Shown piece after piece: positions 6,458-9,691 of a DNA stretch of 64,000 nt. The stretch comes from an uncultured Elusimicrobia bacterium (GTDB lineage Bacteria > Elusimicrobiota > Elusimicrobia > Elusimicrobiales > UBA9959), in the NCBI GenBank assembly GCA_903873295.1, contig CAIQNV010000020.1, forward strand, positions 1 to 64,000, written 5' to 3'. Both the position numbers and the translations under genes were made by a program. Each line of letters opens with the position of its first letter. The first letter of the stretch is position 1. The notes under the pieces are model-generated. The model was not told the origin of the DNA. It was given only the letters and a program-made list of their open reading frames with translations, and searched no databases.

Positions 6458-8434
6458 TCAGCCGCCGCCCTTCTTTTCCCCGGTTTCGCCGGGGTTTTCT
6501 ATCTTGGGGTTGCGGGCGAAGTCCTGCAATTTGGAGGTGAGCACCGCCGCGCGCTTGACCGCCTCTATTATCCGCGAGATCTCCGTCTTTATCGGGCTTG
6601 TGGCCGGCAGGTCGTCGTCTATCAGGGTGGCGTAGCCGCTTATCGCGGCCAGGGCGTTGTTAAAGTCATGCGCTATGGGCCTGGTCACCAGGCTCACCGC
6701 TTCGGCGGCCTGGGTAAGCGCCAGTTCCGTCTCCATCCTCTTCAGGTCGGTAATGTCCCGGGCTATGCCCAGCAGGCCCATGGTTTCCCCGTTTATTCCT
6801 TTGAGGGGGGTCTTGATGATGTTGACATAGCGGCTGCCCCCGGGGAAGGGATGGTGATAATTAAGCGACATGGTTTTTCCGGTGCGCACCGCTTCGCTGT
6901 CCGTGCGGAAGATCTCCGCAGCGGTTTCGGGGGGTAAATAATCCGGATCGGCGCTGCCTATCATGTTAACGGCGTCGGTCCCCATCAGGTCCGCGCAGGC
7001 CTTGTTGACCTTTATGTACATCCCGTTCATATCTTTTATGAAGATGGCGTCATTGGCCGTGTCGAAGACCATGCGCATCAGCGCTTCGCTTTCTTTCAGC
7101 CGTATTTCCATGGCGCGCTGCTCGGTCACGTCGCGTATCGCCCCGGTGACGTAGGCCGGTTTGCCGCCCTCGAACACTATGCCGCTCTTCTGCTCGGCGT
7201 AGAAGTAGGAGCCGTCTTTTTTTCTTATCCGGTATGGCAGAACGGGCAGCGTCCTGCCGGTCCTTATGGCATTGTCGAAAGCTTTGGCTACAAATTCTTT
7301 ATCGTCCGGGTGGGCGAAATCCGTCGCGAGGCGGCCCAGCATCTCGGCCGGGGTGTAGCCGTAGTCTTCGGCCCTGGGGCTCATGTAGGTTATCCTGCCG
7401 TCCAGCCCCGCAGTGTAAATAATGTCCTTTGAGGAGGAGATGATGGCCCTGAACCTGATATCTTCGCCGCGCTGCCGGTTCTCCTCCAGCCTGCGCTGAA
7501 GTATCATGGCGTAGACGCGGGCCAGCTTCTGGGCCGTCTCAAGGGCGGCGGGGCCGTAGTCGCCGGCCGGGTTGGCCAAAGCCAGCATGCCCAGCAGTTT
7601 GCGCCCGGACAGGGCCGGGACGCCCAGGAATTTGTCTATTTTTAAGTGGCCCCGCGGGAGGCCGGCGGCCCGCCTGTCGCCCCGGGCCTTATTGGTAAGC
7701 AGCGGCTTTTTGCGCTTCAGCACCCAGCCCCAGAGGCCGGTGAATTTCTTGAACACCACCGGTTTTTCAGCCAGCTGGCACTGGTCCCAGGCTTCGCTGG
7801 TCAGGGAAGGCACGAGCAGCTGGCCGCTGGCCGGGTCTATATATCCGGTAAAGCCGAAGGAGCTGCCTGTCAGGCGGCGGGCCTCGTCCAGCACGGCGCG
7901 GGAAATTTCTCTGGTGGAGATATTGGGGAAAGAGAGGTAAAGCTCCTCGATGTGTTTTACCGACGACGAAAGGTCGCGCTCGAAAGCGAGATCGGAATCG
8001 CGCTTTTCTCCGGAGATCCTTGCCTCTATTATCCTGGCGGCCGTTTCAATAAGCCTGGCCGCCTCCTCCGCCGCCCGCGGCGGTTTCTCCAGGCGGGCGG
8101 TCAGGCGTCCGGCCCAGGTTCCGCCGGGCCGCAGATCGGCCATGAAAAAGATATTCTTCCGCGACGCCCGGGCGGGTTTTTTCAAGCCGGCCAGGATGCG
8201 GCGTCTTTCCGCCGCGGACGCGTTGCGGAAAACTGCCAGCGGCTTTCCGCCCGGGCCGTCAAGCGTTATAGCGAGCGTCGCTTTACCGCCAAAGCCGCCC
8301 GGGCCGGCCAGTATCCTGATTATTTTTTTCAGGAAAGGCTCGAAATTATCCGGCGCAAAAGCGGCCAGCAGCAAGGCCTGCATGGCTTTGCCGAAAACCG
8401 CCGCGTTCTGGTCTGTAGAGCCGGAAGCGTTCAT
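6458..8434 (-). CDS. GAF-PAS-PAS sensor protein ending in a histidine-kinase DHp-like segment without a catalytic ATPase domain
   Basis: PAS motifs (GLDGRITYMSPRAEDYGYTPAEMLGR; DMNGMYIKVNKACADLMG) and PIAHDFNNALAAISGYATLIDDDL near the C-terminus; ORF stops ~50 aa later. Confidence 0.8.
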   Translation of the reverse strand: MNASGSTDQNAAVFGKAMQALLLAAFAPDNFEPFLKKIIRILAGPGGFGGKATLAITLDGPGGKPLAVFRNASAAERRRILAGLKKPARASRKNIFFMADLRPGGTWAGRLTARLEKPPRAAEEAARLIETAARIIEARISGEKRDSDLAFERDLSSSVKHIEELYLSFPNISTREISRAVLDEARRLTGSSFGFTGYIDPASGQLLVPSLTSEAWDQCQLAEKPVVFKKFTGLWGWVLKRKKPLLTNKARGDRRAAGLPRGHLKIDKFLGVPALSGRKLLGMLALANPAGDYGPAALETAQKLARVYAMILQRRLEENRQRGEDIRFRAIISSSKDIIYTAGLDGRITYMSPRAEDYGYTPAEMLGRLATDFAHPDDKEFVAKAFDNAIRTGRTLPVLPYRIRKKDGSYFYAEQKSGIVFEGGKPAYVTGAIRDVTEQRAMEIRLKESEALMRMVFDTANDAIFIKDMNGMYIKVNKACADLMGTDAVNMIGSADPDYLPPETAAEIFRTDSEAVRTGKTMSLNYHHPFPGGSRYVNIIKTPLKGINGETMGLLGIARDITDLKRMETELALTQAAEAVSLVTRPIAHDFNNALAAISGYATLIDDDLPATSPIKTEISRIIEAVKRAAVLTSKLQDFARNPKIENPGETGEKKGGG

Positions 8435-9120
8435 TATTCGAATTTATAGCCGTGGCCGGGCACGGCTTTTATCCGCTTGCCGAAGGCGCCTATCTTGCGG
8501 CGCAGGTTGGAGACATGCACTTCCACGGTATGCGGGTCGTTATAATCCGCGGTATTGTAGCCCCACACGGCTTCAAGGAGGCTGTTCAGGCTGAGCAGTT
8601 TGCCGGGCTTGGAGCTGAGCGTGGCCAGCAGGTCGAATTCCTTGGAGGTCAGCTTTATCAGCTTCCCTTTGATCTTGATGGTCCTGGCTTCAAGGTTTAT
8701 TTCCAGATCGCCGCTCTTCCTTACGGCTTTTTTCTTTTTGCCGTGGGCGGCCCGTAACAGTATAGCTTTGATCTTCGCCAGCAGCACGGGGTAGGAAAAA
8801 GGCTTCACCACATAGTCGTCCGCGCCGCAGCCGTAGCCCGAAACATGGTCGGCCTCAGAAACTTTCTTGCCGGACATTATGACGACCGGGATGTCGGAGA
8901 GGACCTTATTGTCTTTTATGCGGCGGCAGAGCGTCAAGCCGTCCATGCGCGGCATTTCGACGTCGGTTATTATTATATCGGGTTTTCCGGAGGGGGCGGC
9001 GGCCAGGGCTTCGGCGCCGTTAGCGGCCGTTATGGTCTCAAGGCCGTGGTTTTCCAGGTATTTCTTAAGTATCCCCAGCAGCTCGGGGTCATCGTCCACT
9101 AGGAGGGCGCGCTCTTTCAT
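8434..9120 (-). CDS. Response regulator, OmpR/PhoB family (receiver + winged helix)
   Basis: ALLVDDDPELLGILKKYLE..DIIITDVEMPRMDGLTLCRRI..VVIMSGK..YVVKPFSYPVL; C-terminal LTSKEFDLLATLSSKPGKLLSLNSLLEAVWGYNTADYNDPHTVEVHVSNLRRKIG. Confidence 0.9.
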   Translation of the reverse strand: MKERALLVDDDPELLGILKKYLENHGLETITAANGAEALAAAPSGKPDIIITDVEMPRMDGLTLCRRIKDNKVLSDIPVVIMSGKKVSEADHVSGYGCGADDYVVKPFSYPVLLAKIKAILLRAAHGKKKKAVRKSGDLEINLEARTIKIKGKLIKLTSKEFDLLATLSSKPGKLLSLNSLLEAVWGYNTADYNDPHTVEVHVSNLRRKIGAFGKRIKAVPGHGYKFE

Positions 9121-9142
9121 CCTTTAATTATATACAAAAAAA

Positions 9143-9221
9143 AGCGCCCCGCCGGAACATTCATGATGAGTTACATTTTGCCTTACAAGGGAGTCTTACC
9201 TGTTGTCGCCCGGCGGGGCTT
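9143..9221 (-). ncRNA. Long hairpin with U-tract (terminator-like / leader structure) just upstream of the response regulator
   Basis: Minus strand: AAGCCCCGCCGG ... ~55-nt loop ... CCGGCGGGGCGCTTTTTTTT. Confidence 0.5.
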
Positions 9222-9228
9222 ATAAAAT

Positions 9229-9331
9229 AGCCAGCGCTGCAGATGCATAGAGCACGGAGCCCGAAGGCCCCGAGTCTTGGGGGTTTGGGTTAGGGGGCGC
9301 ACCGTACAGCGCTGGGGATCTGTTTTTAAAG
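9229..9331 (-). ncRNA. Putative structured ncRNA, tandem copy R1
   Basis: CCAGCGCTG...CAGCGCTGG closing helix with nested ACGG/CCGT, AGCCC/GGGTT and CCCC/GGGG helices; second copy at 9416-9521; conserved promoter-like flank on minus strand. Confidence 0.55.
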
Positions 9332-9349
9332 AACGTATGCCGCGTTAAA

Positions 9350-9381
9350 AGTATAACAAAGACAATTCAAGAACCGCTCAA
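9350..9381 (-). promoter_or_regulatory. Putative promoter/operator of R1: TTGAGCGGTTCTTGAAT-N9-TATACT
   Basis: Minus-strand reading; 11-bp phased TTGAGC/TTGAAT followed by TATACT, same geometry as at 9541-9594. Confidence 0.45.
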
Positions 9382-9415
9382 ATGTTTTTTACCGCCGTTT
9401 AAATACTCAAAATTA

Positions 9416-9521
9416 AGCCAGCGCTGCAGATGCATAGAGCACGGAGCCCGAAGGCCCCGAGTCTTGGGGGTTTGGGTTAGGGGGGCGCACCGTACAGCGC
9501 TGGGGATCTGTTTTTTTAAAG
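9416..9521 (-). ncRNA. Putative structured ncRNA, tandem copy R2
   Basis: Near-identical to 9229-9331 (one G-tract indel, T-tract length difference); 187-bp period. Confidence 0.55.
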
Positions 9522-9540
9522 AGCTTCTCGCTACCTTCAA

Positions 9541-9594
9541 AGTATAACAGAAGCCGTTCAGGAATCGCTCAACTGCGGCTCAAAACCCGCTCAA
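9541..9594 (-). promoter_or_regulatory. Putative promoter/operator of R2: four 11-bp-phased repeats then TATACT
   Basis: Minus strand TTGAGCGGGTT TTGAGCCGCAG TTGAGCGATTC CTGAACGGCTT CTGTTATACT. Confidence 0.5.
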
Positions 9595-9691
9595 GATTGA
9601 AAATGCCCGCTTTACGACGGAAACCTTCCCGCGCGGCCCCGTTAATTTTCTAAAATATAGCCGTGACTAAAATTTCCCTTATCCCGCCGAC

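Follow-up and report, generated by a model that had tools for sequence, protein, structure and literature searches.

A tandem pair of predicted structured small RNAs beside a response regulator gene in Elusimicrobia

Organization of the locus

The window, i.e. the whole stretch of DNA that was analyzed (64,000 nucleotides), carries two near-identical tandem units located 5′ of a gene pair encoding a response regulator and a sensor. The features considered here are as follows:

6458..8434, minus strand: sensor with GAF-PAS-PAS-HisKA domains, proposed partner of the regulator
8434..9120, minus strand: PhoB/OmpR-type response regulator (receiver and winged helix), proposed activator
9127-9132, minus strand: the regulator's own TATAAT, 6 nt before the ATG
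9136..9219, minus strand: proximal 3′ domain, an 11-bp GC stem closing an unpaired loop of about 50 nt
9136-9143, minus strand: terminator-like T-run ending the proximal 3′ domain
9193-9199 and 9180-9186, minus strand: UMAGNC repeats in the loop of the proximal 3′ domain
9229..9320, minus strand: proximal RNA core (5′ domain), a two-helix arm with a C-rich internal strand
9274..9299, minus strand: proximal C-rich unpaired strand, CGCCCCCTAACCCAAACCCCCAAGAC
9350..9381, minus strand: predicted proximal promoter, with TTGAGCG-N4-TTGAATT boxes and TATACT
9350-9355, minus strand: proximal -10 element TATACT; predicted RNA start near 9343
9416..9508, minus strand: distal RNA core (5′ domain)
9461..9487, minus strand: distal C-rich unpaired strand, CGCCCCCCTAACCCAAACCCCCAAGAC
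9541..9594, minus strand: predicted distal promoter, with four TTGA/CTGA boxes of 11-bp period and TATACT
9541-9546, minus strand: distal -10 element TATACT; predicted RNA start near 9534

The two units, of about 92 nt each (9229-9320 and 9416-9508), are spaced by 187 bp, and the pair was found at a single place in its genome. As a preliminary description of this DNA had stated, the copies are nearly identical: they share a stretch of 69 identical nt, which is followed by an indel in a G-tract and a difference in T-tract length. Their promoter flanks are repeated too, with 78% identity over 40 nt. The extent originally given to the feature (9229-9521) did enclose real units, but the functional unit is longer, with promoters reaching up to 9594 and a 3′ domain at 9136-9219. 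The ~92-nt units appear to be the cores of a longer minus-strand RNA, with a predicted length of about 210 nt. Read from 5′ to 3′ on this strand, a box promoter and a TATACT -10 element come first; then follow a short leader (GTTCTTTAAAAACAG), the core arm, and, joined to it by a short linker, the 3′ domain, in which the GC stem with its loop is followed by the T-run.

The promoter and the terminator-like sequence are conserved, although in this genome only the proximal copy has a 3′ domain. The distal copy leads directly into the promoter of its neighbor, and its transcript may stop at the stem of its own core or read on. In some other genera, a T-run comes directly after the closing stem of the core. 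Behind a core copy of L004, L007, L008, and L009, the 3′ domain is replaced by another conserved sequence (TTTATCCCGAATCC...), possibly an inserted repeat.

Fold, strand, and distribution of the RNA

In a sequence-only MAFFT alignment, the consensus fold comprised 27 pairs arranged in two helices, and double compensatory changes were present in 13 of these pairs. In a family-wide alignment of 51 distinct sequences, which was fitted to the structure and is biased towards the fold (a bias from which the MAFFT alignment is free), such changes were seen in 21 of the 27 pairs, and 97.5% of the cells were paired, a value that was matched by none of 500 shuffles. Since shuffles cannot separate relatedness from selection, this result was read beside slid-column controls of the family-wide alignment, in which 30-45% of the cells were paired. 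Reading of the minus strand gave 135 G-U cells versus 3 A-C cells, and this excess argues that selection acts on the minus-strand RNA. When compared with dinucleotide shuffles, folding of the minus strand yielded z-scores of -4.2 and -4.4 for the two window copies, versus -1.7 and -1.1 for the plus strand, whose fold did not stand far apart from the shuffles. The plus-strand reading was thus rejected on the basis of its poor z-score and the G-U asymmetry.

These data point to a structured non-coding RNA on the minus strand, i.e. both the nature and the strand that the preliminary description had favored. It was also right about the outer closing stem (CCAGCGCTG/CAGCGCTGG), in which homologues show compensatory changes. 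The inner helices that it drew (ACGG/CCGT, AGCCC/GGGTT, and CCCC/GGGG) did not hold: they are plus-strand pairings unsupported by the relatives, with 4 double-change cells versus 51 for the consensus fold, and the strand placed in them is the unpaired, nearly invariant C-rich one. While the fold, the strand, and the conservation are supported by the sequences themselves, transcription of the RNA is what we infer from them.

A family-trained covariance model (R2, E <= 0.01) detected relatives of the RNA in 49 of the 59 genomes searched within the family, though a few of its weakest matches were related scaffolds bearing the same C-rich strand; a genus-trained model (R1) found the core in 46 of the 59 genomes. 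When R2 was run with strict filters on the 176 remaining genomes of the class, none of them was matched. A DNA search of 32 genomes of the genus returned strong matches in nearly all of them, usually a pair at a single locus with variable spacing, and some of the genus genomes were single-copy, partly at contig ends. Because a single copy is present at this locus in the other genera that were read, the tandem pair is a trait of the genus, and it is conserved in most of its species, in agreement with the tandem small-RNA design proposed at the outset, which might serve dose or redundancy control. An exact 24-nt core pattern was present in 28 DNA stretches from GTDB species genomes, the sources being metagenome-assembled genomes labeled Elusimicrobia, Elusimicrobiales, or Elusimicrobiota (e.g. 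GWA2_61_42, GWC2_61_19, and CG1_02_56_21) or an unassigned bacterium.

A search of the whole window against Rfam at the gathering threshold indicated no family for these RNAs, and a relaxed search (E <= 10) over 9130-9650 gave nothing, consistent with the earlier statement that no known RNA class could be recognized. As judged by Rfam and ARAGORN, one tRNA near 43 kb is the sole known RNA gene of the window. Literature searches on small RNAs or riboswitches in Elusimicrobia returned nothing relevant. We conclude that the RNA family, described neither in Rfam nor in the papers retrieved from the library searched, is new and restricted to one family of Elusimicrobia. The RNA is ordinary in kind, and its unusual traits are the C-tract array, the phased dedicated promoter, the duplication in the genus, and the lineage that carries it.

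Promoters and the adjacent regulator

Each RNA copy has its own predicted promoter, in which phased boxes and TATACT precede the copy on its minus-strand 5′ side, where a promoter-like flank had previously been placed. Counted from the start of the -10 element, [TC]TGA boxes occur at -15 and -26 in 50 of 50 genus copies, at -37 in 39, and at -48 in 42 of them. Of 14 copies outside the genus, 10 showed this same phase; in the remaining four, the script had misplaced the -10 element. Direct repeats with an 11-bp period that replace the -35 element are typical of PhoB/OmpR-type activators. When 32 genomes were searched with the promoter motif, allowing three mismatches, the matches fell almost only on these RNA genes. 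Among the few matches elsewhere is a NifU-like gene, seen in three genomes, and the system may therefore have outputs other than the RNAs. In L183, L184, and L185, two TTGA-type boxes and a TATAAT are located before a NifU C-terminal-like gene.

The regulator contains domains PF00072 and PF00486 and is PhoB-like, yet it scored under every NCBIfam cut-off listed. For HATPase_c, no match was found in the sensor of this genome or in its relatives in L097, L101, and L107, which counts against the proposed two-component circuit. In L097, a single open frame covers both the regulator and the sensor. The regulator/sensor gene pair adjoins the RNA across the genera read, the RNA being positioned, depending on the genus, either 5′ of the regulator or, in four other genera, 3′ of the sensor. 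A TATAAT of the regulator's own is present a few bases before the start codon in nearly all loci of the genus that were read, and its distance from the ATG in the window suggests that the regulator mRNA may be leaderless; genome-wide, leaderless mRNAs gave a weak signal.

The promoter architecture and the genetic linkage are supported at the level of sequence, and the position and type of the boxes are what connects them with the regulator. In the mechanism that we propose, the PhoB-like regulator would bind three to four direct TTGA(G/A)CG repeats upstream of the -10 element, which take the place of a -35 element, and this binding would switch the RNAs on. The RNAs would probably be the main output of the adjacent sensor-response regulator system, and perhaps its only direct one.

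Possible functions of the C-rich strand

Within the genus, the core presents on its 5′ side an unpaired, C-rich strand, CGCCCCCCUAACCCAAACCCCCAAGAC, that hardly varies. In other genera, the lengths of its C-tracts vary (cf. UAACCCAAA and UAACCCCCAAA), and the CCC-(U/A)AA rhythm is kept. Exactly three CC[U/A]AA units were counted in 38 of 38 distinct genus cores, versus 0.93 in shuffles, while the 3′ domains contained about two UMAGNC units, mostly with 11-13-nt spacing, versus 0.20 in shuffles; since the copies are homologous, these counts are not independent. Different stem scaffolds in other members of the family also carry the C-rich strand, and the reversed strand, taken as a control, gave no match in the 59 family genomes. 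The recurrence of the C-rich strand on several scaffolds suggests that the partner is shared, be it a set of mRNAs or an RNA-binding protein, and fits a shared seed and a shared protein alike.

Models of Hfq and of CsrA matched none of the 32 genus genomes, whereas genomes used as positive controls were matched, and no GGA motif is present in the proximal RNA. An Hfq-dependent pairing sRNA was rejected on the first of these grounds, while a CsrA sponge of the CsrB/RsmZ type was rejected for want of both CsrA and GGA. Complementarity to the C-rich strand at start codons showed no specific excess over that of the reversed sequence or over coding interiors in a 438-kb sample, which covers about 13% of the genome and in which a simple gene caller predicted 360 genes. 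A broad anti-Shine-Dalgarno role was thus rejected for this sample, individual targets being still allowed. This leaves action on a limited set of targets, or the titration of a protein that binds C-tracts.

We consider it reasonably probable that the locus encodes paired trans-acting small RNAs, switched by the regulator and independent of Hfq and CsrA, which act by pairing through the C-rich strand. Each of the two RNAs would be transcribed from a minus-strand promoter of its own, and the core arm would present the nearly invariant strand with its three CCC-(U/A)AA units. This strand would work without Hfq or CsrA and most likely form C-G-rich pairs with G-tracts in a limited set of mRNAs; both the action in trans and the molecules bound are what we infer for it. 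The 3′ domain would stop transcription and contribute the loop with the UMAGNC repeats. With its covariation-backed fold, its assigned strand, and the phased promoter and regulator linked to it, such a small-RNA family of Elusimicrobiota would offer a signal-to-RNA circuit open to direct testing, in a genus without detected Hfq or CsrA.

A different role, which we hold to be rather unlikely, is protein titration, in which the CCC-(U/A)AA units, together with UMAGNC, would sequester an RNA-binding protein in the way CsrB/RsmZ does with CsrA; a KH-domain protein, a cold-shock protein, or Rho might be the protein bound. The above-shuffle numbers of both units per core and 3′ domain speak for it, as do the sharing of the short array with other stem scaffolds, the resemblance of the dedicated two-component promoter to GacA-RsmY/Z control, and the failure to find broad mRNA complementarity in the 438-kb sample. 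However, this RNA is not the known sponge, as CsrA was not found in the genus and the proximal RNA lacks GGA. A titration circuit of a new type, in which the HATPase_c-less sensor drives redundant RNAs that sequester a C-tract-binding global regulator, without detected Hfq or CsrA and with the CCC-(U/A)AA array on several scaffolds of the family, seems to us distinctly doubtful.

The proximal terminator, located in this genome about 16 nt before the regulator start codon, could also belong to a cis-acting leader, i.e. a riboswitch or attenuator acting on the regulator-sensor operon. This is very improbable, as each RNA copy has a promoter of its own and the RNA is not always 5′ of the operon; its variable position, together with the conserved TATAAT that the regulator has after the terminator, argues for separate transcription of the RNA. 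Near-identical tandem inverted-repeat units might likewise represent a mobile or repetitive (REP/MITE-like) DNA element without RNA function, to which we assign a next to negligible probability: the units occupy a single genomic place, neither dispersed copies nor target-site duplications were seen, the locus is conserved across genera, the promoters are phased, the G-U pairs are one-sided, and the exact core gave no match in 2.9 million viral contigs.

The reading as paired trans-acting RNAs has parallels in known systems. RsmY/RsmZ-CsrB with GacS/GacA and Qrr with LuxO are two-component systems with redundant small RNAs as direct output, and the Rsm RNAs carry repeated motifs. The present RNAs differ in that they have no GGA, CsrA and Hfq were not found in the genus, and the regulator is of the PhoB/OmpR type. 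The 6C RNA of Actinobacteria has two hairpins with six or more C residues in their loops, and the title of an article on 6C/B11 by Mai et al. (2019), which is cited in PMC10470900, reportedly contains the words "independent of RNA chaperones." Exposed C-tracts are common to both RNAs, but here they lie in one asymmetric internal strand and are split by UAA/AAA, and the RNA has a dedicated two-component-type promoter and an adjacent regulator. Membership in 6C was rejected, since no Rfam match was obtained and the consensus fold is one arm with a C-rich internal strand.

The exposed C-tracts of B11/6C pair with G-tracts of mRNA leaders (PMC10470900), as the C-rich loop of GsrN does with mRNA G-tracts (PMC5869019). 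GsrN, from Caulobacteraceae, is similar also in that its C-rich loop is its most conserved part, it is restricted to a family, and its gene usually lies near those of its regulators (PMC5869019). GsrN is, however, controlled by a sigma factor and has its C-rich loop at the 5′ side, in contrast to the response-regulator-type boxes, the tandem copies, and the extra 3′ domain seen here. RNAs with CCUCCUCCC loops in Rhizobiales (SmelA075/SmelA099), for which an anti-Shine-Dalgarno role was proposed, share a repeated pyrimidine motif and variable stems (PMC3927594), whereas in the present RNA the motif is CCC-(U/A)AA instead of CCUCCUCCC, it is located in an internal loop, and anti-Shine-Dalgarno enrichment is absent from the 438-kb sample.

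Among the other scaffolds that bear the C-rich strand, a second type, present in L105, L106, L109, L142, and L143, combines the strand CCCTAACCCAAACCCC with a long GC stem, accompanied in two cases by a T-run; no homologue of the regulator or the sensor was found for it in L105, L106, and L109. A third type, in L108, L141, L178, and L179, has a GGCCGGGC... stem with CCCTAACCCAACCCC or a close variant, and in L178 and L179 it is followed by a response-regulator-like gene. L178 contains in addition a match to the 2dG-II riboswitch (L178:2066-2137, 76.9 bits).
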